From the NCBI GenBank assembly GCA_038400315.1, contig CP151667.1:6087174-6151173 (forward strand): a DNA stretch of 64,000 bases, given 5' to 3'. Under the pieces are notes generated by a model. The model worked only from the letters and a program-made list of their open reading frames with translations. It made no database searches and was not told the origin of the DNA. Position 1 is the stretch's first letter. Each line of letters starts with the position of its first letter. The position numbers and the translations under genes were made by a program. Positions 5,712 to 34,200 of this stretch are shown piece by piece. The DNA comes from Isosphaeraceae bacterium EP7. Its GTDB lineage: Bacteria > Planctomycetota > Planctomycetia > Isosphaerales > Isosphaeraceae.

Positions 5712-8700
5712 ATGAGCTCGCGCCGGAACCCCCATCGCGCCAGGATCGCACTCGAATCGCTCGAGGCTCGCAGAGCCCCGGTCGCCGACTTCGCCCTGGC
5801 GATCGGCCTGGGGGTCGCCCATTCCGAATCGTATGTTGACCTGAAGATCAACGCCACGGCCGGGGATGCCGCCGGCAATGTCGTCGTGGTCGGCTCGGTC
5901 CTGGGCACGGCGAATTTCGGGACGACGGCCAGCCCGTTGAACTTGACCAACTCGGGGATGCGCGACGGCTTCGCCGCCAAGTTCTCGGCGGACGGGTCCC
6001 TCGTCTGGGCGAAGACTCTGGCCGGGATGACCCCGTCGGCGTTCTCGCAGGGCTCGGCCGTGACCCTCGATGCCCAGGGGAACTTTCTGATCTCGGGAGT
6101 CTACAACGGCTCGGTCGACTTCGACCCGGGGGCCGGCACGCACCTCATGACGACGGCCGCCGACAGCTACGACGCCTATGTCCTCAAGCTCACGTCCTCG
6201 GGGGCATTCGCCTGGTCCGCGGTCGTGGCGGGGACCAACGGCTCGTACGCGTACAACCAGGCGACCTCGATCGCCGTGGACCCAGCGACCGGAGACGTCG
6301 CCTTCGCAGGCTCGTTCACGGGCCAGTCCGGCCTGATGGGCGCCACGTTCGACGCCGGTTACCGCACAGAACAGTTCGTTGCCAGGCTCGGGCCCGACGG
6401 CCAGCTCCGCTGGGCGGTGTCCACGGCCGGCTCGGCGTCATCGGTGGCTCAGGCGACCGGACTCGCGTTCGACGGGCTGGGCAGCGTCATCAACGTCGGC
6501 TTCTATGCGGGGACGGTGGACTTCGATCCGGGGCCCGGCCAGGTGCTGCTCGCCGGCGCGGGCGGTCGTGACGCCTACGTTCAGAAGCTCGACAGCCTGG
6601 GGAATTTGCTCTGGGTCAGGGGGTTCGGCTCGACCGACTTCGATCAGGCGAATGCCGTGGCCGTCGATGGGGCGAACCGAGTGATCGTTACCGGGTCGTT
6701 CAGCGGCTCGGTCGTCTTCGATCCGTCGAGCTCCGCGTCAACCTTGACTTCGGGCGGCGACTTCGACGGCTTCGTCGCTGTTGTCGGCCCGACCGGATCG
6801 CTCTCCTGGGTCCGGCAGGTCCAGGAGCAGGCGGGGGGAAGCTCCGGCGGCCTCGGCCTGGCGGTCGACGCGGGGGGCCGCATCTTCGTCGACGGCTTCT
6901 TTTCCGGCACGGCGAACTTCAATCCGGCCGGAGCGGCCGTCTCCAGAACAAGCGCTGGGCAGTACGACGTCTTTCTCGCCACCTACAGCGGCTCGGGCTC
7001 GCTCTATGGCGTCCTCCAGGCGGGCGGCACTGGCAACGACGTCGCATTCGGCCTGGGAATAACTCCCGGCGGCGATGCCTGGATCGCTGGGAACTATGCC
7101 GGCCCTGCGCAGTTCGGCGGGGTGGGATCATTGCCCGCCGTCGGAGCCGTAAGCGTCTTCCTGGCCCGTGTCGTCCAGCCGATCCCCCCCGTCGCGCCGC
7201 TCGCTCCGACGCTCCAGCCGGGCAGTGACTCGGGCTCGAGCAATTCCGACTCGATCACGAATGTCGCCCAGCCAGTCTTTGATCTGGCGGGGATCGTGGC
7301 CGGCAACACCGCGAGCCTGATGCGAGACGGCCTGATCGTGGCCAGCCGGGTCGGCCCCGGGCCACTGGCCGATCCGGGGCCGATCGCCGATGGCGTCCAT
7401 CAATACTCAGTCAATCAGACCGACCCCTCGGGTACGGCTGGCGCATCGGGCCCGTTCGTGGCGGTGACCTACCTCGGCACGAAACCGGCGGCCCCCACCT
7501 CGTTGACCCTGCTGGCGATCGATGACAGCGCGACACCCGGCGACAGCATCACGAACGTGGCCCAGCCCAGGCTGACGGGCTCGGCCGTCACTGGGCTGAC
7601 GGTCCAGATCGTCGACGCATCATTGAACATCGTCGCGACCACCGTGGCCAACTCCTCGGGGGCCTACACGGCGCGTCCCGTCGCGGCGCTCGCCGACGGC
7701 ACTTACACCCTCTTTGCCCGGAGCGTGGACATCGCCGGGAATCAGGGACGATTAAGCCAGGCGTTCTCTCTCACGATCAAGGCGAGCCTGCCCGCCACCC
7801 TCGGGACGCCCGGCTTACTGGCGGCCGACGATAGCGGCACGGTCGGCGACGGCATCACGAACGTCGTCCAGCCCAGGCTGACGGGCTCGGCGACGGCGGG
7901 AACCGAGGTGCAGCTCGTCGATTCGGCCGGTTCGATCATCGCAACGGGGCTGGCGTCGGGGTCGGGTGTGTACACGATCCGGGTTCCGTCTCCGTTGATC
8001 AACGGGACATCCACCTATCGAACACGCGTCGTCGACGCGGCGGGGAATCTCGGCGTCCTCAGCCCGTCGTTCTCGCTGGTCGTCCTGAATGGCAAGCCCG
8101 CCGCGCCGCTCGCGCCGACGCTCTTCCCGGGAGATGACAGCGGCGTGGGGGGGGATGGGATCACCAACGTCGTGCAGCCCAGGCTGACGGGTGTCGTTGC
8201 CGGCGGCCTGACGGTGCAACTGGTCGACCCGGCCAGGCCCGACGTGGTGCTCGGTTCGACGGTTGCGGACGGATCCGGCGTTTATCTGGTCCGTCCGGCG
8301 GCGCCCCTGCCCCAGGGGGGCAACTCGCTGGCGGTGCGTGTGGTCGACGTCGCCGGGAATACGAGCGAGGTCGGGGCCAGGTTGTCGCTCACGATCATGA
8401 CCGCCCCGCCCGCGACGCCCGCCGCACCTACGCTGTTTCTAGCAGACGACACGGGCATTGCCGGCGATGGAGTCACCGCGGTGCGACGGCCCAGGTTCGC
8501 CGGGTTGGCCGCGGTGGGCTCCTCGGTCGAGCTGATCGACGCCCAGGGACTGGTGATCGGCTCGGCCAGGGCGTCCGCCACCGACGGCTCGTACGTCGTC
8601 CAGCCCTGGGCTTCGCTGCCGTTGTACGCCAGCTCGGTGCGAGTGCGTGCCACCGACCTGGCGGGGAATCCGTCGGCCGCAGGCGCCTCGTTCGCGGTGT

Positions 8701-20540: not shown

Positions 20541-23500
20541 TCAGTGGGCCGCGATCGCCTCGGTGACAGGTTCATCCGACTCGTCCTTGATGAGGCTGCT
20601 CTTGTCGGCAATCACGCCGAACAAGTAATACAGGCCGGGAATGAACAGGACCCCGATCAAGGTGCCCACGAGCATCCCGCCGACTGACGCGGTGCCAATC
20701 GTTCGATTTCCGATCGCACCGGGGCCGGTGGCATAAACTAACGGGAGGAGACCGGCGATGAACGCGAAGGATGTCATCAAGATCGGCCGGAAACGCAATT
20801 TTCCGCCCTTGATCGCCGCCTCCTTGATGCTCAACCCCTCACGGTGCAGTTGCACCGCGAATTCCACGATCAAAATCGCGTTCTTGCCGAGCAGGCCGAC
20901 CAGCATGACCAGACCGATCTGGGCGTAGACGTCGTTGGACAATCCCATGACCTTCAGGAGCAGGAAGGCTCCGAAGATCCCGATCGGCAACGACAGGATC
21001 ACCGCCAGCGGCAGCATGAAACTCTCGTATTGCCCGACCAGCACGAGATAGACGAAGACAACGACGACCAGGAAGATATAGATCGCCGTGTTCCCCGCTC
21101 CCGCCTCATCATAAGATAGGCCTTCCCAGCCGATGTCGTAACCGTGGGGCAGAGTCTCGGCGGCGACCTCCTGGATCGCCTTGATGGCTTGGCCGCTGCT
21201 GAAGCCGGGAGCTGGTGCACCCTGAATGGCGGCGGAGGGATACAGGTTGTAGCGGTTGATCTCGTTCAGGCCCTGCTGCTTCTTGAGCGTCATGAAGGAG
21301 GAATAGGAAACCATCTCCCCTTGTTCGTTCTTGACGAACATTGTCTCCAGGTCCTCGGGATACCGCCGGAACTCCGGCGCGGCCTGAACGAAGACCTTGA
21401 AGAACTGGCCGAAGAGGATGAAGCCTTGCTCCCATGTGCTGCCCACGTTGATGGATAGGTTGTCCAACGCGGCTGCGATCGACACCCCCTTCTGCATGGC
21501 CACGTCGTTGTTGATGACCAGTTCATACTGCGGGTAGTTGCTGGCGAAGAAGGTGAACAGGCCCTTCACCTCTTTACGCTTCGACAGGGCGGCCATGAAC
21601 TTTTCGGTCACTTTACCGAGTCGTTCGTAGTCATTCGTGTTCGTCTTGTCGAGGACACGCGTGGAGAATCCCCCGGCCGCGCCGAAGCCCGGAACCGCCG
21701 GAGGCTCGAAGAACTCGAGCTTGACATTGGAGATCGCACGACCTTTTTCGTCGAGCTTTTCGATGATCTCGCGGGAGGTCAGCTTGCGATCGGCCCATGG
21801 TTTCAGATTGATGAGGCAAGTCCCCGCGTTCGACCCGCGTCCCTCGGTCAGGACCTCGTAACCCGCCAACGAGGAGACCGAGTTGACTCCTTCGATGCCT
21901 TTGGCAACCACCTGCAGTTCGTGAGCCTTGGAATTGGTGTATTCGAGGGTCGAGCCTGGAGGCGTCTGGATGATCCCGTAGATCATCCCCTGGTCTTCGA
22001 GCGGAATGAAGCCGGTCGGGAGCTTCGTGTTCACGAGGTAAATGGCGACGCAAAAGCCCATGATCACGAACATGGTTAACGTGCGGCTCGTGACGATCGG
22101 GCGTAGGACCGCGGCATATCCGCCCGTGACCCTCTCGACCCCTCGGTCGAAGAGATGGAGCAAGTAGGCGAGCGGGCCACGCTTTTTCACCTGGTTCGAG
22201 TGGGGCTTGAGAAGCATCGCGCAGAGGACCGGCGTGAGCGTCAGGGCCACGACGCCGGAAAGCACGATGGCCATGGCCATCGTGAGACCGAACTGGCGGT
22301 AGAAGACGCCGACCGGCCCGGTCATGAAGGTCACCGGAATGAAGACCGCCGTCATCACCATGGTGATCGCGATGATCGCCCCGCTGATCTCCTGGACAAC
22401 CTCCTTGGTAGCCCGATAGGGCGAGAGATGCTTCTCGGCCATCTTGGCATGCACCGCCTCGACCACCACGATGGCGTCGTCAACCACGACCCCGATCGCC
22501 AGCACCAGCGCGAAGAGCGTGATCAGGTTGATCGATAGGCCGAACAACAGCATGAAGAAGAAGGTCCCGATCAACGACACCGGAACCGCCAGGGTCGGGA
22601 TCAGCGTGGAACGCCAATCACCGAGGAACAGGAAGACCACCAGGGCCACCAGGATGAAGGCCTCGAAGAGCGTGTGGAGCACCTTCTCGATGGAAGCCTC
22701 GAGGAACGCGGAGACGTCGTAGGTGACCGCGAAGTCCATGCCTGGTGGGAATGACTCCCCCTTCATCTCCTGGAGCTTCTCCTTGACCTCCTCGATGACG
22801 GCGGCGGCGTTGGAGCCCGGGGTCTGCTTGAGGACGATGGCTGCGGAGGGGAGGCCGTCGATGTCCGAATAGAGGTTGTAGTAGGAGGCACTCAGCTCGA
22901 CCTTGGCGACGTCCTTGAGCCGCAGGATCTCTCCGTTAGGATTTGCTTTAATAATGATATTTTCATACTGCTCCGTCTTGTTGTAGCGTCCCACCCAGGT
23001 CAGGACGTACTCGACCGTCTGCGAGGTCGTGCCCGTCGCCTGGCCGAGCCGACCGGGAGAGCCGATCATGCTCTGCTGTCCGAGGGCCTTCATGACGTCC
23101 TCGGAGGACAGATTGTAGGCTCGCATGCGGTCGAGATTCAGCCAGACCCGCATCGAATACTGGCGGCTACCGAGGATCGTGGCGGTGCCGACGCCCCGGA
23201 CCCGCTTGATCTCGGGCAGGATGTTGACGAAGGCGTAGTTGTAGAGGAAATTCTGGTCGACGCCCTTCTGGGTACTGAAGACGTTCACATACATCAGCAT
23301 GCTCGTCATCATCTGCATGACGACGATTCCCTCCCGCTCGACCAGGGGAGGCAGCCGGTTCTTCACCATGTTGATCCGGTTATTCACGTTCAAGACCGCC
23401 ACGTTCGGGTCCGTGCCCGGCTCGAAGACGATCTGGATCGTTGCCTCACCGGCACTGGTGGCGGCGGAGGCCATGTAGCGCATGTCCTGCACGCCGTTGA

Positions 23501-23705
23501 TGGCCTGTTCCAGGATGATGAGGACCGAGTCGACCAGGACCGCGGCACTGGCGCCGGGATAAGCAACCGTGACCACCACGCTGGGCGGCGCGACGGAAGG
23601 GAACTGGGAAATCGGGAGGGTGTTGATCGCCAGCCCGCCCAGGAACAGGATGACCACCGAGATGACGATTGCCAACGCCGGCCGCTGGAGGAATTTTGCG
23701 AACAT
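20541..23705 (-). CDS. HAE1-family RND efflux pump (AcrB-like inner-membrane transporter)
   Basis: This proton-driven tripartite efflux pump has 1054 residues, the normal AcrB length. It starts MFAKFLQRPALAIVISVVILFLGG, has a first periplasmic porter region (ISQFPSVAPPSVVVTVAYPGAS), then TM4 with the proton-relay pair in AIGVVVDDAIVVVEAV, a second porter half, and the TM10-12 block (GLLGKNAILIVEFAV, GGMLVGTLIGVLFIPGLYYLF). It is the last gene of a minus-strand set OMF (28620), small protein (26060), MFP (25308), pump (23705). The 334-bp gap before it is unusually long for one operon. The substrate cannot be read from sequence. Confidence 0.95.
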   Translation of the reverse strand: MFAKFLQRPALAIVISVVILFLGGLAINTLPISQFPSVAPPSVVVTVAYPGASAAVLVDSVLIILEQAINGVQDMRYMASAATSAGEATIQIVFEPGTDPNVAVLNVNNRINMVKNRLPPLVEREGIVVMQMMTSMLMYVNVFSTQKGVDQNFLYNYAFVNILPEIKRVRGVGTATILGSRQYSMRVWLNLDRMRAYNLSSEDVMKALGQQSMIGSPGRLGQATGTTSQTVEYVLTWVGRYNKTEQYENIIIKANPNGEILRLKDVAKVELSASYYNLYSDIDGLPSAAIVLKQTPGSNAAAVIEEVKEKLQEMKGESFPPGMDFAVTYDVSAFLEASIEKVLHTLFEAFILVALVVFLFLGDWRSTLIPTLAVPVSLIGTFFFMLLFGLSINLITLFALVLAIGVVVDDAIVVVEAVHAKMAEKHLSPYRATKEVVQEISGAIIAITMVMTAVFIPVTFMTGPVGVFYRQFGLTMAMAIVLSGVVALTLTPVLCAMLLKPHSNQVKKRGPLAYLLHLFDRGVERVTGGYAAVLRPIVTSRTLTMFVIMGFCVAIYLVNTKLPTGFIPLEDQGMIYGIIQTPPGSTLEYTNSKAHELQVVAKGIEGVNSVSSLAGYEVLTEGRGSNAGTCLINLKPWADRKLTSREIIEKLDEKGRAISNVKLEFFEPPAVPGFGAAGGFSTRVLDKTNTNDYERLGKVTEKFMAALSKRKEVKGLFTFFASNYPQYELVINNDVAMQKGVSIAAALDNLSINVGSTWEQGFILFGQFFKVFVQAAPEFRRYPEDLETMFVKNEQGEMVSYSSFMTLKKQQGLNEINRYNLYPSAAIQGAPAPGFSSGQAIKAIQEVAAETLPHGYDIGWEGLSYDEAGAGNTAIYIFLVVVVFVYLVLVGQYESFMLPLAVILSLPIGIFGAFLLLKVMGLSNDVYAQIGLVMLVGLLGKNAILIVEFAVQLHREGLSIKEAAIKGGKLRFRPILMTSFAFIAGLLPLVYATGPGAIGNRTIGTASVGGMLVGTLIGVLFIPGLYYLFGVIADKSSLIKDESDEPVTEAIAAH

Positions 23706-24039: not shown

Positions 24040-25308
24040 CTATTCAGCCCTGTTCTTGAGGTTCGACATGACCAGTTCCGGGGCGCTGAACTCGTATTTG
24101 ACCTTCTCGCCGTCGCGAACCTGTTGGAGCCCCTCGAGGACGATCCTGTCTCCCACACCGAGTCCGTTCTTGATGACAAAAATATCGTCCAAGGTGTTCT
24201 GGACGACAACCTCGCGCTGGTGCACCACATCATCCTTACCGACGACGTAGGCATACCGCTTGTCGAGGATCTCGAAAGTCGCCCGCTGGGGGATCACGAG
24301 TGCGTCCTTCACCACTCGGTTGATCAACACGGTGCCGGTCTGACCGTGGCGAAGCAGGCGGTCCGGGTTCGGAAAATCCGCGCGGAAGGGGATGTTGCCG
24401 GTCTCGTTGTTGAATTGGGCCTCGATCGCACCGATCTTGCCGACCTGCTTGAACGTGCTGCCGTCCGCCAGACGGAGTCCAACTTTCCGCTCGTCCTTGT
24501 GATGATTCAGGCCGGCCATGTATTCGAGGTATTGGGCCTCGGGCACGTTGAAATAAACCCACATCAGGCTGTTGTCGGACAGGGTCGTGAGGTCGTCCCC
24601 CTCCTTGATCAGGCTGCCCAGTTGCTCGTGCAGGCGGTCGACGATTCCATCGAAGGGCGCTTTGACGTTGGTGAAGTTCAACTCCGCCCCGGCCAGTTCC
24701 GCCTTTGCCTGGGCCTTTGCCAGCTTGGCCTCGTACATCAGCACGTCATTTTGAGAGACCACTTTGGTGTCGAACAACCTCTTGCTGTACTTGAGCTCCA
24801 GTTGCGCGAGCTTGGCCTCGGCGTTCTCGGCGTCCAGCCTCGCCTGGTAGAGGGTCGGCACGATCTTGAACATCAGATCGCCCTTCTTCACCGCTTGGCC
24901 CTCCTTGACCATGATCGACTCGAGATAGCCGCTCTCCAAGGCACGGACATTGATGTGTCGCTGCGAGTGGATCTGGCAGACAAATTCCTGGGTGATCGTG
25001 ACGTCTTGCGCCTTGGGGCTGGTGACCACGATCTTGTGTTGCTCCCCGTGCGGCTGCTCCTCATGCGCGTGAGAATCCGACTCGAGCTTGCCGGCGACGA
25101 GTTCATTCGCCCGCATGGCCTTCACGCTGATATCATCGAGATATGCGTAAATCTCTTTCGTGTGCAGCGACGGGAGGTCCACGCGCATCTTGTACAGGGC
25201 GAGGACGCCGCCGCCCAGCAGGACGATTGCCATCATCAAGGTCTTCACCGGCCGTCGCTTGGCGATTTCAGTCTGATTCATCGCAACGACGGGTTCATTC
25301 TGGTTCAT
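24040..25308 (-). CDS. RND membrane fusion protein (AcrA/MexA-like)
   Basis: This is the periplasmic adaptor linking the pump to the outer-membrane channel. The 422-residue product has an N-terminal membrane anchor (TLMMAIVLLGGGVLALY, about 24-40), a lipoyl half-motif (INVRALESGYLESIMVKEGQAVKKGDLMFKI), a helical hairpin (about 155-215), the second lipoyl half (VKAPFDGIVDRL), and a beta-barrel/MP domain (LLRHGQTGTVLINRV, VIPQRATFEI). A His-rich stretch HAHEEQPHGEQH (about 78-90) precedes the lipoyl domain, which is not universal and might bind metal. The start at 25308 follows AGGAG by 8 nt; the longer upstream frame is Arg-rich and unlikely. Confidence 0.93.
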   Translation of the reverse strand: MNQNEPVVAMNQTEIAKRRPVKTLMMAIVLLGGGVLALYKMRVDLPSLHTKEIYAYLDDISVKAMRANELVAGKLESDSHAHEEQPHGEQHKIVVTSPKAQDVTITQEFVCQIHSQRHINVRALESGYLESIMVKEGQAVKKGDLMFKIVPTLYQARLDAENAEAKLAQLELKYSKRLFDTKVVSQNDVLMYEAKLAKAQAKAELAGAELNFTNVKAPFDGIVDRLHEQLGSLIKEGDDLTTLSDNSLMWVYFNVPEAQYLEYMAGLNHHKDERKVGLRLADGSTFKQVGKIGAIEAQFNNETGNIPFRADFPNPDRLLRHGQTGTVLINRVVKDALVIPQRATFEILDKRYAYVVGKDDVVHQREVVVQNTLDDIFVIKNGLGVGDRIVLEGLQQVRDGEKVKYEFSAPELVMSNLKNRAE

Positions 25309-25685
25309 CGCGGAACTCCTGTGCGACTCTTCTCGACTTTGTCCCGATTCCTCGGACCAAGGAATCGCGGTGTGGATTTGAGGGATTCGAGTACGGACAA
25401 CGATCCGACTCGGTCCGACACCAAGGGGGGGGACGAGGTGGCGTCTGAAGGCGCGCAGGATGAACTCTCGACGGATCCTCAGCGATCGATCGCGGATCTC
25501 GGCCAACGGACCACGCCGAATCGACGGCCACGAGGGTCGTCGAGCCCCAAGACTTGGGCAGCGGCGAGACACGAATGAACCGAGTCGACGACGTCGATCG
25601 AACGACATCCCCCAGGCTCAGGACCTGGATGATGCGTGCAGGACCGGCGAAAGATCAGCCGGCATGAGGGGCGATTGGAGGGGGA
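25309..25685. other. 377-bp spacer with no recognised gene
   Basis: This GC-rich spacer lies between the small membrane protein gene and the MFP gene on the same strand. No conserved motif was found. Confidence 0.5.
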
Positions 25686-26060
25686 TTAACAGCGGAGAGG
25701 GTAGAGCGAGAGGATCGAGGGGCGGGCGATCGGCTGGCGATCGGGGAGATTGCGGAAGGACCACGGGATCAGGAAGGAATCACAAGACTTGGCCAGAACA
25801 TCGGTCCAATCCTGCTCTTCATCCTCGGAAGAGATGGCTTTCAACTTCAGGAAGTCGTCGATCTCCACCGGTGCGACGCGACAGATCGTCGCTAGGCCCG
25901 GTGGTAGTGCGAGAGTGCGGCGAAGGCAATCGGGCCGGGACGAGAGGTTAACGGAGCGCGAGGTCCGGATCGGGGCAACCAACGCAAACGCCAGGAGTGC
26001 GAGCAGCACCAGCGAGGAAGTGAGCCAGAGCGTGAAAACGAGGCGTTTACGGTCGGGCAT
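25686..26060 (-). CDS. small membrane-anchored hypothetical protein in efflux locus
   Basis: The 124-residue product begins with a short basic start and one strong hydrophobic segment (LVFTLWLTSSLVLLALLAFALV, about 8-29), followed by a likely periplasmic region with two Cys residues (RPDCLRRTL, LATICRVAP) and a third near the end. No family is recognised. It lies between the OMF and MFP genes on the same strand, which hints at an accessory role in the efflux system. The start at 26060 puts the hydrophobic segment at the N terminus; an upstream ATG at 26132 is possible. Confidence 0.5.
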   Translation of the reverse strand: MPDRKRLVFTLWLTSSLVLLALLAFALVAPIRTSRSVNLSSRPDCLRRTLALPPGLATICRVAPVEIDDFLKLKAISSEDEEQDWTDVLAKSCDSFLIPWSFRNLPDRQPIARPSILSLYPLRC

Positions 26061-26575
26061 GGCATCTCGCTTCTCGAACGTCGTGATTCGAGGTTCGCTC
26101 GCCGAATTCCGGCAAGATAGCATTTCTACCAAATCGCTCCGCGATTTCCCCGGCTAGACGGGTGAAGCCCATGGCCCTGTTTTATCGACTCTCTCGGCTC
26201 CCGAGGAAGTCCCAAAGTTTTGGGTCAAGCGATACACGACGGTCAAGTCGTAAAATTTATAGCTAGACTCTCGACGAAAGTCAAGAAACGGTGTGGTCGT
26301 TCGATGCCTGGCAAGTCGCTTCGGTTGACCCTCCAGAGCAACTACGCACACGTGCTGCTCTGCATCGCAAGAAGGCCCGTCCCGCTTCCAACTCACGTCC
26401 AGGTTGCGTCTCCAGGGACTGAGCCGCTGGATCCAACAGGTTCGGCCGTGCTTCGTGTCAGATTATCGTCCACGTCGCGGATCGTTGAAAGCCGCGGGTC
26501 GGTCCGATTGCCCGGTCCTCGATCACCCAACCTCGAACGGGTCGGTTGACCACCCTTCTTCAGCTGAATGAACCT
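26061..26575. other. spacer downstream of the OMF gene
   Basis: About 515 bases of mixed composition contain no supported gene. The part near 26200-26280 is AT-rich and may carry a promoter for the genes at 26060 and below. Confidence 0.45.
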
Positions 26576-26739: not shown

Positions 26740-28620
26740 TCACTTCCCCGCCGTCGCCGTATCCGTCGACGGTGGGGAGGGTTTGGTAGCAGCGGTGGAT
26801 TCGACGACGGGGTCTTTGGACCCCTCCTGGTTGAACGGGCCGGGCAAGCTTGCGGGGGGTGGCGGGGGCGGGAGTGTCTCCGGTTTGTCGCCGGGCACCA
26901 TCTGGGGGAGGGCCGGCGGAGGCGCGGGGATCTCCTCGATCAGGGCCGGGTCGAGTCGGTCAACCGGAGGGATGACGATCTTTTCGCCGACCTTCAGGCC
27001 GTCGAAGGTGGGGACAAGGTCCTTGTTAGCCGCCCAGAGGGCCTTGCTATACCGGGCCGACCTGTAATAGAGCAGCGAGATCGTCGAGAAGCTCTCGTCG
27101 CTGCGGACCGTGTGGGTGTACGGATATTGACCGTGAAAGTCTGCCGGGGTCGAGATCGTCAACACACCGCCGCCGAGCGCCTGATACGCATTCGCGGTGG
27201 CTGCCAGTTGCTCCGCCTTGGTGTCGATCAGGGTAGTCCTCGCATCCCTGAGGTCACGCTGGGCATAGAGCACGTCGATGTATTCGGTCCGGGCATTCTG
27301 GAAGAGAGTCTCGGCGACCTTGACCGAGGCCTCGAGCGAAGCCAGCTGCTGCTTCTTGATCTCGATGCTCTTGGTGTAGTTCTCCACCATCGTCACCCGG
27401 TTGATCACCTCGGTGAAGGCATTGAGGACGACGCGCTGGTAGTTGTAGACGCACTGCAATTGCCGGGCATTTGCGGTGAGGTACTGGGCCCTGATCGCTC
27501 GCTTGTTGACGAGCGGCGCCACCAGGCCACCGGCGATATCGCCGAGCACGGCTTGCGGCTCGAACAGATGACTCAGGTTGAGGGACTGGAGGCCAACGCC
27601 TCCGTTGATCACAAGCTGAGGGAAGAAGTTGACCCTGGCGACCTTCACGTCGAGCCCAGCGGCCGCCAGTTCACGCTCTGCTTGGCGGATGTCGGGGCGG
27701 TTCTGAAGCAGTTCCGACGGCACACCCACGCTCAGCGGGTGAATAGTAAGGTCGTAGAATCCCTCAGACACTCGTTCGACACGCTGCGGGTAGCGGTTGA
27801 CGAGGAAGTTTATGCGGTTCTCGCCCTCGATGATACTCTGGTTGATGATCAGCTTTTCGCTCTGGTTGCGTTGAACTTCGGCCTGGAAACGAAGGACTGC
27901 CAACTCAGTGCCTCGAGCTGCTTCCTTCCTGAATTCGGCAATTTTGAGACTTTGCTCTTGAAGCTCGATGATTTGATCCAGATTCTCAAGCCGTTTGTCG
28001 AGCGCCATCAGCCTGTAATAATTCTCGGCAATCTCCGCGATCATGCGGGTCACGAAGAAGTTCCGCCTCTCGCTGGCGACGACGTAGCGCTGCCCGGCCG
28101 CGTCCCTGGCATTCCTTAGCTGCCTATAGATGTCCAGTTGCCAGGAGAGGTTGATGCCCGCCCCGTAATTTCCATGCGGATTGGAAAAGAATCTCCCGGG
28201 GAGGAACGGGTCGTTGAGCAGGGCGGCTCCGTCGAGCGTGAAGCGGCTGAATCTCTCCAGCCCCGCGCCGGACGCGATGCTGACGAAGGGAAGGTACGCC
28301 CCCGACCGCGCAAGCACCTCGTTGCCGGCGATCTGGACCTCCTCATTCAGTCCCTTCAGCTCCCGATTGTCGACCAGCGCCTTCTCGATCAAGCATGTAA
28401 GCATGCGGTCATTATAAAACTCGTCGATCCCGAGCTGGGATGAGTTTTCAGTGCTTGTCGTTCCATTGAAGTCGTTTGGCAGGCCTGGCGGCGGTTGCGG
28501 ATGACGGAGGGCGGGGATTCCACAGGACGGCAGAACCAGCAGCATGATGCTGCAAGCGATCGCTCTCGCAATCACGTGCCACATCGTCTTTGTGTTCGAG
28601 AATCTCACTGTGAGGTTCAT
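26740..28620 (-). CDS. outer-membrane efflux lipoprotein (TolC/OprM type) with C-terminal LysM-like domain
   Basis: This 626-residue protein is the outer-membrane channel of the tripartite pump. The signal ends in a lipobox LVLPSC (Cys33), so it is likely lipidated. Residues about 65-470 carry two OEP repeats with long helices (ELKGLNEEVQIAGNEVLARSG, LQNRPDIRQAERELAAAGLDVKVARVNFFPQL). The extra part is a LysM-like unit (about 512-562: THTVRSDESFSTISLLYYRS to LVPTFDGLKVGEKIVIPP), followed by a Pro-rich tail of about 65 residues. Ordinary OMF proteins end near 470-480. The fusion suggests anchoring to peptidoglycan or another cell-wall glycan. Confidence 0.9.
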   Translation of the reverse strand: MNLTVRFSNTKTMWHVIARAIACSIMLLVLPSCGIPALRHPQPPPGLPNDFNGTTSTENSSQLGIDEFYNDRMLTCLIEKALVDNRELKGLNEEVQIAGNEVLARSGAYLPFVSIASGAGLERFSRFTLDGAALLNDPFLPGRFFSNPHGNYGAGINLSWQLDIYRQLRNARDAAGQRYVVASERRNFFVTRMIAEIAENYYRLMALDKRLENLDQIIELQEQSLKIAEFRKEAARGTELAVLRFQAEVQRNQSEKLIINQSIIEGENRINFLVNRYPQRVERVSEGFYDLTIHPLSVGVPSELLQNRPDIRQAERELAAAGLDVKVARVNFFPQLVINGGVGLQSLNLSHLFEPQAVLGDIAGGLVAPLVNKRAIRAQYLTANARQLQCVYNYQRVVLNAFTEVINRVTMVENYTKSIEIKKQQLASLEASVKVAETLFQNARTEYIDVLYAQRDLRDARTTLIDTKAEQLAATANAYQALGGGVLTISTPADFHGQYPYTHTVRSDESFSTISLLYYRSARYSKALWAANKDLVPTFDGLKVGEKIVIPPVDRLDPALIEEIPAPPPALPQMVPGDKPETLPPPPPPASLPGPFNQEGSKDPVVESTAATKPSPPSTDTATAGK

Positions 28621-31130: not shown

Positions 31131-33602
31131 CTAGACGTTGTCCCCTTCGGTGGAGGTGGACGCCGAGCCAGCCTGCAACTGCGCCCCCCAGCTCCAGGCG
31201 CTGATTGCCGGGATGTCATCGCCGTGTTGTGCGATGTATTCCTTGTGCTCGATCAGCTTCTCGTGGATCGCCTGCTTGAAGTAGGCGGCGCGGGAGCCGA
31301 GCTGGGGAAGCCGATCGATCACGTCTTCCACCAAGTGGAACCGGTCCAGCTCGTTGAGGACCACCATGTCGAAAGGCGTCGTCGTCGTGCCCTCCTCCTT
31401 GTAGCCCCGGACGTGGAGATTCTTGTGGTTGGTTCGCCGGTATGTCAGCCGGTGAATCAGCCAAGGGTAACCGTGGAAAGCGAAGATGATCGGCTTGTCC
31501 TTCGTGAACAGGGCGTCGAAGTCGTGGTCCGAGAGTCCGTGAGGGTGCTCGCTGGCCGGCTGCAGCTTCATCAGGTTCACGACGTTCACCACGCGGACTT
31601 TCAGCTCCGGCAGGTGCGTGCGAATGAGCTCGACCGCCGCCAGCGTCTCGAGGGTCGGGACGTCTCCGCAGCAGGCCATGACCACGTCCGGCTCGCCCCC
31701 CTTGTCATTGCTGGCCCACTCCCAGATGCCGAGGCCAAGGGTGCAATGCTTGAGGGCTTGGTCCATCGTCAGCCACTGCGGCGCGGGCTGCTTGCCCGCG
31801 ACGACGACGTTGACATAGTTGCGGCTGCGAAGGCAGTGGTCAGTGACCGAGAGCAGGCAGTTCGCGTCGGGCGGCAGGTAGACGCGGATCACCTCTGCCT
31901 TCTTGTTGACGACGTGGTCGATGAAGCCGGGATCCTGGTGGCTCAGACCGTTGTGGTCCTGCCGCCAGACGTGCGAGCTGAGGAAGTAGTTGAACGATGC
32001 GATCGGCCTGCGCCAGGGAATGTGGTTGCATACCTTGAGCCACTTGGCATGCTGGTTGAACATCGAGTCGATGATGTGTATGAACGCCTCGTAGCACGAG
32101 AAGAACCCGTGACGGCCGGTCAGGAGGTATCCCTCCAGCCAGCCCTGACACTGGTGCTCGCTGAGCACTTCCATCACCCGACCGTCCGGGCTCAGCTTGT
32201 CGTCCTCGGGGTAGATCTCGGCCATGTAGCAGCGGTCGGTGACCTCGAGCACGTCCTGCCAGCGGTTCGAGTTATTCTCGTCCGGGCTAAAGATTCGGAA
32301 GTTCTGGCTCTCAAGGTTCAGCTTCATCACGTCCCTAAGAAAGGTGCCCATCACTCGCGCCGACTCGGCCGTAGTCGCGCCAGGGCTGGGCACGTCCACC
32401 GCGTAGTGACGGAAATCGGGCATCTTCAGGTCCCGCATCAGTAGGCCGCCGTTGGCATGAGGATTATCGCTCATCCGGCGGTGGCCCTTCGGGGGCAAGT
32501 CGGCCAGTTCAGGTGTCAGCCTCCCTTGGGCGTCGAACAGCTCCTCGGGCCGGTAGCTCTTCATCCAGTCCTCGAGGATTCGGATGTGATCGAGCTTGTC
32601 CATGTCGCCCATCGGAACTTGATGGCTCCGCCAGTAGTCCTCGCACTTCTTGCCGTCGATCTCCGGCGGGCAAGTCCACCCCTTCGGCGTGCGGAAGATA
32701 ATCATCGGCCACGCCGGGCGCTTCAGGTTGCCCCTCGTCCGGGCGTCGTCCCAGATACGACCGATCTCCGCCACGACGGCATCGAGCACTCCGGCGAGCT
32801 GCTGATGGACCGCCGTCGGATCGTGCCCCTCGACGAAGTACGGCTTGTAGCCCATGCCCTCGAAGTACTTCTGAAGTTCTTCCTTCGGGATCCGGGCGAG
32901 GAAGCAGGGATTAGCGATCTTATAGCCGTTGAGGTGGAGGATCGGCAGTACGCAGCCGTCGCGCGCCGGGTTGAGGAACTTGTTCCCGTGCCAGCCGGTC
33001 GCGAGAGGGCCGGTCTCCGCCTCGCCGTCGCCGACGACACATGCGACGATCAGACTTGGGTTGTCGAAGGCCGCCCCGTAGGCGTGGCTCAACGAGTAAC
33101 CGAGTTCGCCGCCCTCGTGGATGCTGCCCGGCGTCTCCGGCGCGACGTGACTAGGAATGCCCCCCGGGAAGCTGAATTGTTTGAACAGCCTTCGCATTCC
33201 CTCAGCGTCCTGACTGATCTCCGGGTAATACTCGCTATAAGTTCCTTCGAGGTAGGCGTGGGCAACCAGGGATGGGCCGCCGTGCCCCGGCCCGATGATG
33301 TAGATCATGTCCAGATCATCTCGCTTGATGACCCGGTTAAGATGCGTGCAGAGCATGTTCAGGCCTGGCGACGTGCCCCAATGGCCGAGCAGCCTGGGCT
33401 TGATGTGCTCACGCCTGAGCGGCTCTCTCAGGAGGGGATTATCGAGCAGGTAGATTTGCCCGACGGACAGGTAGTTGGTGGCACGCCAGTAGGCGTCGAG
33501 CTTGCACAACTCGTCCGACGAAAGAGGCGTCTCTTCGCCACGAGAATTGTCCGAGGGCATGGCGGTCTCGTTTGGTGCTCGAGTCATCGGTGTCACGTCC
33601 AT
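31131..33602 (-). CDS. xfp: xylulose-5-phosphate/fructose-6-phosphate phosphoketolase
   Basis: This thiamine-diphosphate enzyme cleaves xylulose 5-phosphate (and often fructose 6-phosphate) with phosphate to acetyl phosphate plus a C3 or C4 sugar phosphate. The 823-residue length is typical. Visible family motifs are [20 protein letters not shown] (cofactor pocket), the TPP-binding block [21 protein letters not shown] to [10 protein letters not shown], and [17 protein letters not shown] near the C terminus. The start at 33602 is chosen because GGAG lies about 9 nt upstream. No acetate kinase gene follows, so acetyl phosphate must be used by enzymes encoded elsewhere. It is the first large cargo gene of the tRNA-Met island and codes on the same strand as the ABC operon. 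Confidence 0.96.
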
Positions 33603-34200
33603 TGGTCCACTCCGCAATAGAGATCGCTGGCATTTACTAAATCAAAAATGCATGTTATACTTATATTGAAAGTAGGCATGTTGTTTTCGTCGTAATTATG
33701 CCTTTCTAGTCAGTAGATATCACTTGCAGATAGTCGAGTTCGCGTCCGGGAAATCGGCGTTTCACCCGACGCATTTCGTCCGAAGGCGATATCAATTCCG
33801 AAGAGTTCGAGCCCCTCGCAGATGCGGCTGCGGACATCGGGAGAGTTTTCGTCGACACCCCCGGACAAAGTGCGAGTGCTCTTGCTCAGCCCTGTCCGTG
33901 GCATTTGCTAATCCGCAGTCGTGATTCTGGTCGTCCAGAACGATCATTCGCTCAGTACCTATCAATGAGCGTACTCTCACCACCTTATCGCGTTGATTCG
34001 GCCATCAGGCCCGCTGGAGGAGCATCGGTGTCAATATCACCGCGATTCGGTCGATTTCCAAGCGGAAAGAGGCCGATTGCACAAATCGACTCTTTACGCA
34101 GACGATTCGCTTCCAGCTAGCCCTTGCTATCGGTCACATCCCATCAGCTTATAGGTGACAGCTTCGCCCATCAACGCTCGGGAAACCGCAGCTTTCTGGC
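33603..34200. other. AT-richer spacer upstream of phosphoketolase
   Basis: This 598-bp stretch has no supported gene. The part 33630-33720 is markedly AT-rich on both strands, with TATAAG/TATAAC-like hexamers on the complement that could form the xfp promoter. No precise promoter could be defined. Confidence 0.45.

Follow-up and report, generated by a model that had tools for sequence, protein, structure and literature searches.

A LysM domain fused to the outer-membrane channel of an RND efflux locus in the Isosphaeraceae: a possible tie to the cell envelope

Introduction

LysM domains are chiefly known for binding glycans. Kbp (YgaU) is a small potassium-binding protein in which a LysM is joined to a BON domain, and the LysMs in the baseplates of phages and injection systems have a structural role. 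Outer-membrane factors (OMFs) of the OprM/CusC/NodT type (TIGR01845, PF02321) contain two OEP repeats and a lipobox, and their genes adjoin those for an adaptor and an RND pump. The C-terminal portion of OprM-type channels forms part of their equatorial belt (excerpt of PMC8277102), and the equatorial domain of TolC has been proposed to contact peptidoglycan (excerpt of PMC13082787). At this domain TolC can acquire an extra module in the form of its lipoprotein partner YbjP, for which the same excerpt doubts avid peptidoglycan binding (PMC13082787). Two further systems place a LysM in the service of an outer-membrane protein. The inverse autotransporters intimin and YeeJ combine an outer-membrane barrel with a periplasmic LysM, which in YeeJ binds peptidoglycan (PMC5595812, in part), and the LysM of TsaP fastens an outer-membrane channel, the type IV pilus secretin, to the cell wall (PMC9239104, in part).

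Here we describe a gene of Isosphaeraceae bacterium EP7, located in a window of 64,000 nucleotides within a genome of 7,199,273 bases in five contigs. The encoded protein shares the OEP repeats, the lipobox and the adjoining adaptor and pump genes with OprM, CusC and NodT, and differs from them by about 140 further residues that comprise a LysM and a Pro-rich tail. While intimin and YeeJ carry their LysM on the N-terminal side of an unrelated adhesin barrel with no efflux role, and TsaP is a separate protein, the LysM in Isosphaeraceae is fused to the channel itself, either an OMF or, in 17 of 45 genomes, a secretin. YbjP likewise is a separate lipoprotein and has another fold. Kbp is the closest solved LysM by both sequence and fold; the window protein, unlike Kbp, has no BON match up to E 1 in a Pfam scan. 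Among the titles and abstract beginnings listed by searches of open-licence PMC papers, none describes an OMF-LysM or secretin-LysM fusion.

Results

The gene begins with ATG and its translation is uninterrupted, with no internal stop. Its parts and the adjoining efflux genes are listed below.

26740 to 28620, minus strand: OMF-LysM fusion gene, 626 aa; a single open reading frame with OEP and LysM matches
28522 to 28533, minus strand: LPSC at residues 30-33, a lipobox-like motif that follows a hydrophobic signal segment; read from the translation
27166 to 28422, minus strand: TolC/NodT-type channel (residues 67-485); PF02321, TIGR01845 and CusC/OprM sequence matches
26965 to 27120, minus strand: LysM domain (residues 501-552); PF01476, beta-alpha-alpha-beta domain model, Kbp LysM match
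26743 to 26964, minus strand: Pro-rich C-terminal tail (residues 553-626); from the sequence, alignable with a secretin tail
26833 to 26844, minus strand: PGPF motif (residues 593-596); GPF/SPF pattern in orthologues
24040 to 25308, minus strand: periplasmic adaptor of the RND type, 422 aa when counted from the probable ATG; TIGR01730 at 226.3 bits, above cut-off
20541 to 23705, minus strand: RND pump of the AcrB type, 1054 aa; PF00873 at 982 bits, TIGR00915 above cut-off

A preliminary description had read the gene as a TolC-type barrel extended by a LysM-like module and a Pro-rich tail, and the OEP and PF01476 matches together with the sequence confirm this architecture. In a Pfam scan of the 626-residue protein, PF02321 matched two stretches of the channel with 108.5 bits (cut-off 22), while the best NCBIfam model for the channel, TIGR01845 (outer_NodT), reached 207.8 bits against a cut-off of 210.05. 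Matches to PDB sequences included CusC (4.9e-37), OprM (1.5e-32) and SilC. The signal segment and lipobox cysteine were assigned by eye from the sequence, and the majority consensus of the aligned orthologues also has LPSC. Prediction of the full-length structure from an alignment with 10 close sequences was poor (mean pLDDT 50.0).

The LysM had initially been placed at residues 505-565, which is close to the position of about 501-552 assigned here. Taken alone the window copy is borderline against PF01476, with 18.3 bits when the protein is scanned, below the cut-off of 20.9, and 23.2 bits, above it, in a six-frame genome search. Each of the ten aligned orthologues is matched by PF01476 with an E-value of 1 or less, the best being 4.2e-6, and their domain alignment contains 16 invariant columns; in the turn between strand and helix the Gly of the nine other copies is replaced by Asp in the window copy. 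A domain model built from 65 rows was confident (mean pLDDT 93.5, pTM 0.81) and has the order beta-alpha-alpha-beta (E6-9, H16-24, H27-36, E52-55). LysM domains head its list of fold matches in the PDB, the top ones being to the LysM of E. coli Kbp (TMq 0.75-0.80; Z 9.8, 9.6 and 8.3). Below Kbp, at Z values under 8 that indicate a common fold only, stand LysMs from phage or injection-system baseplates and the chitin- or peptidoglycan-type LysMs Ecp6, CtCBM50, AtlA and intimin, so that the glycan-bound examples (Ecp6, CtCBM50) rank lower than Kbp. Every Foldseek E-value was at least 0.001, for a query of only 66 residues. When the LysM profile was compared with PDB sequences, Kbp (6.6e-4) and TsaP (5.8e-3) were the best bacterial envelope matches. 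Because ten orthologues match the Pfam family, core positions are conserved and the confidently predicted fold fits solved LysMs, the domain is, as judged from these comparisons, a genuine LysM at the level of the family.

The preliminary description had also raised a frameshift joining two genes. A frameshift or misassembly that fused an OMF gene with a LysM gene has practically no chance of explaining the protein, as the junction is in frame in all ten LysM orthologues, from ten genomes that include Singulisphaera acidiphila DSM 18658. The Singulisphaera sp. GP187 orthologue (L200 8935-10874) is broken into two overlapping frames, which would suit such an artefact, but the break falls within the channel part, away from the LysM junction.

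Some match to the fusion protein was detected in 53 of the 59 genomes searched. Thirty-one channel orthologues were examined, with a full LysM in 10, a half LysM in 4 and none in 17. The channel tree, comprising 30 loci plus G036 (L057) and built without G043, the fragments in G015 and G055 and second pieces, unites the LysM and half-LysM rows in one group (support 100/99), inside which the half-LysM rows form a group of their own (100/100). Two label changes account for the whole tree, which fits a single origin of the fusion inside the Isosphaeraceae by one gain, followed by partial loss. The full fusion is present in 10 of 45 family genomes (several of them incomplete MAGs), spanning nine genera, and the half LysM in at least five more, the fifth such gene having been read in G066. 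Carriers of the full form include S. acidiphila DSM 18658, Singulisphaera sp. GP187 and several MAGs, while Tautonia sociabilis carries the half form, which keeps the part aligning with the two helices and lacks the second strand.

The survey of OMF-LysM fusions across the phylum that had been suggested was carried out with a junction profile, which detects only fusions to OMFs resembling that of the window. Among the best candidates (at most 11 per genome) from a sample of 392 genomes of the phylum, a match to the full junction was obtained in the EP7 genome only. A match in G304 spans the junction with 33 bits, in a frame of 268 aa that is too short for such a channel; one in G150 reaches column 78 of 114 by passing through two stop codons; the rest lie essentially on one side of the junction.

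The tail also follows a pattern, with GPF or SPF in 14 of 14 orthologues bearing a LysM or half LysM, as against 1 of 17 lacking it. A strict pairing of PGPF tail and LysM is nevertheless made less likely by a paralogous LysM-less OMF of the same genome (L001 1381-3078, minus strand), which has a Pro-rich end with TPGPF.

In 16 of the 17 stretches examined, one strand carries the OMF gene along with those for adaptor and pump; the exception (L191) ends too soon. In the direction of transcription, the window and seven further LysM loci (L190, L192, L194-L197, L200) have the order OMF-adaptor-pump, and the order adaptor-pump-OMF occurs in the LysM locus L193, the half-LysM loci L198, L199, L201 and L068, and the LysM-less loci L064, L065 and L070. 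Orthologues without a LysM thus adjoin adaptor and pump genes of this kind as well, which was counted against a wall anchor. Between the OMF and adaptor genes of the window, a block of about 690 bp (25684-26370) is conserved at the DNA level in several relatives. A gene within it was rejected on the basis of six aligned sequences, which lack a distinct three-base periodicity (the share of variable columns is 46, 60 and 53% in the three frames), and the block has no match in Rfam. At L193 a short OMF-like fragment (6375-6653, 32 bits), perhaps a truncated second copy, lies between pump and OMF. Elsewhere in the window, an 828-aa open reading frame (31131-33617, minus strand) may encode a phosphoketolase.

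Selection was estimated as NG86 dN/dS in eight pairs of full-LysM orthologues and three half-LysM pairs. Across the eight full-LysM pairs the ratio was 0.12-0.28 for the channel (last 300 residues), 0.16-0.66 for the LysM (52 codons, for which single dS and dN/dS values are noisy) and 0.40-1.30 for the tail, and in every pair the LysM value exceeded that of the channel. The LysM positions of the half-LysM pairs gave 0.08 (L030/L033), 0.59 and 0.50. The LysM is under selective constraint, weaker than that on the channel.

Across the family, the LysM profile yielded 74 matches in 44 of 45 genomes, which were sorted into 10 full and 4 half OMF fusions, 17 secretins (in 17 genomes) and 43 other proteins. 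The secretins with a C-terminal LysM, called by similarity to L101 of at least 262 bits, are L101, L125, L126, L135, L137, L142, L145, L147, L150 and L153-L160; PF00263 was present in all four that were scanned. In a tree with few columns, the LysM of the L101 secretin (genome G024) groups with the OMF LysMs at 100/99, the OMF rows alone being supported at 96/78, and its tail can be aligned with the OMF tails, including MPGPFGQK. The surroundings of L101 differ from the OMF locus: its contig has frames that we take to be the type II secretion genes GspE and GspF, and a PQQ-repeat-like frame follows the secretin. G024 is a single MAG (81% complete, 4% contaminated), and the L101 secretin may be a chimera in spite of these surroundings. 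With LysMs of this type at the end of secretins as well as OMFs, the domain is apparently a module that can be reused at the C-terminus of outer-membrane channels, and the occurrence of a very similar piece on OMF and secretin suggests a shared anchor for envelope channels.

Twenty-three of the 43 other proteins have a second, weaker LysM match, and the five that were read whole are Pro-rich. A Pfam scan of four gave LysM only for L127 and L104 and no match for L136 and L149. The protein L127/L051 (L127 1011-2846, minus strand) belongs to EP7 itself. Around residue 98 it has a strongly hydrophobic segment, and it further contains an extended Pro-rich stretch and, at the C-terminus, two LysMs; proteins resembling it occur in many family genomes. 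A PF01476 search of the EP7 genome at E up to 1e-3 had returned the window copy alone, and the resulting view of it as the only LysM in the genome was wrong, because a closer profile detected this second protein.

Profile searches of the EP7 genome found no PBP transpeptidase (PF00905), SEDS or GT51. Within the family PF00905 matched one genome out of 37 (G003, with 85% completeness and 5% contamination), and outside it all seven f2 genomes and the single f6 genome; SEDS (PF01098) was found in none of the 37 and in the same eight f2 and f6 genomes. GT51 (PF00912) was absent from all 59 genomes and is not discriminating, because it is missing also where SEDS and PBP are present. Each of these three profiles was positive in 10 of 14 control genomes. 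MurG (TIGR01133) scored above cut-off in 4 of 59 genomes, all f2, and just under it (192-247 bits) in the other f2 genomes and f6, while the family genomes gave no match or partial ones of up to 52 bits, the best in EP7 being a partial match of 21 bits. The three Mur_ligase_M matches of EP7 are a cyanophycin synthetase (L202 790-3729, minus strand; 1101.7 bits, TIGR02068 cut-off 850), a MurE-like protein (244 bits against a cut-off of 257) and FolC. Per genome there are 5 or 6 such matches in f2 and 1 to 6 in the family (6 in S. acidiphila, 5 in GP187), so the Mur-ligase gap may differ within the family.

A tie between the LysM and the loss of wall genes was rejected. Other families of the class are also without PBP, SEDS and GT51 matches, and the seven orthologues read from them have no LysM, so there is no simple link between the two. 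Speaking against a simple absence of peptidoglycan, GlcNAc and MurNAc are reported in three planctomycetes and DAP in four, with synthesis genes in all species analysed (Jeske et al. 2015, excerpt of PMC4432640), and an abstract on Paludisphaera borealis, of the Isosphaeraceae, mentions several peptidoglycan genes (PMC5352709). By the gene content found here, an ordinary peptidoglycan wall is a doubtful target for the LysM in EP7. Three readings present themselves: unrecognised enzymes make peptidoglycan, the LysM attaches to a different polymer, or its partners are proteins.

Discussion

By analogy with the systems described above, we favour a model, at a probability of roughly 0.52, in which the LysM moors the duct of an RND pump to a GlcNAc-containing wall polymer and so steadies or positions the pump. 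The gene product would be the outer-membrane exit duct of the efflux pump, to which one Isosphaeraceae lineage has added a periplasmic LysM ahead of the Pro-rich tail. The C-terminus is expected to exit the channel at the equatorial domain, with the LysM following after a 15-residue linker, and the three LysMs of a trimer would ring it at the level at which peptidoglycan has been placed around AcrAB-TolC. These LysMs could grip the wall polymer, which may be peptidoglycan from unrecognised enzymes or a substitute, and hold the tripartite pump.

The preliminary description had supposed that coupling an efflux channel to a glycan-binding domain could anchor the pump to the planctomycete cell wall. 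The fusion, the LysM identity and the efflux operon stand; anchoring is the reading favoured by analogy, and its ordinary peptidoglycan target has become doubtful. Anchoring to the wall is plausible because of the position at the equatorial domain and the precedents of YeeJ/intimin and TsaP. Counted against it are the Asp for Gly in the window copy, the lack of recognisable peptidoglycan polymerases and of most Mur ligases in the EP7 genome, the potassium-binding Kbp as closest solved relative and the baseplate LysMs among the next matches. A clade with only half the domain also fits poorly with the idea that the glycan groove is essential.

The main rival to a wall anchor is protein docking, in which the LysM would bind the adaptor, another LysM or dual-LysM proteins and form a trans-envelope tie. 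We consider docking less likely, and the mainly glycan-binding character of the family counts against it. In its favour, EP7 itself encodes a candidate partner in its Pro-rich, dual-LysM protein with a hydrophobic segment. The half-LysM clade, having lost the second strand, retains the helix part under a constraint that is strong in the pair L030/L033, but in only this one of the three pairs. Excerpts of the literature add that the C-terminal tail of OprM takes part in the MexAB interaction (PMC8277102) and that the LysM of intimin dimerises (PMC5595812).

It is improbable that the LysM is instead a tolerated passenger with little function, heading for loss. The weaker constraint relative to the channel in all eight full-LysM pairs, the loss of a near-invariant Gly in the window copy and the reduction to a half LysM in one clade, with none in other family members, would agree with such a fate. 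Yet none of the 11 pairs has a dN/dS as high as 1 for the LysM stretch (with noisy dS over 52 codons), 16 positions are invariant across ten rows, the full domain is retained in nine genera, and a secretin bears a very similar cassette.

The wall-anchor model can be widened, as a speculative and rather unlikely proposal, to one in which the Isosphaeraceae swap a cassette of LysM and Pro-rich PGPF tail between unrelated channels, TolC-type ducts and secretins, mooring both to an envelope polymer in a family whose genomes show no recognisable forms of the known peptidoglycan polymerases. If this were true, the LysM would mark either peptidoglycan from undiscovered polymerases or a GlcNAc-containing wall polymer other than peptidoglycan. 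A TolC-type duct with a fused LysM would be the built-in version of a job that is done by separate proteins elsewhere. Its counterpart on secretins and the apparent gaps in wall synthesis lift the case beyond a single odd fusion. The LysM could help to reveal what fills the space between the two membranes in bacteria that seem to lack genes for wall synthesis.
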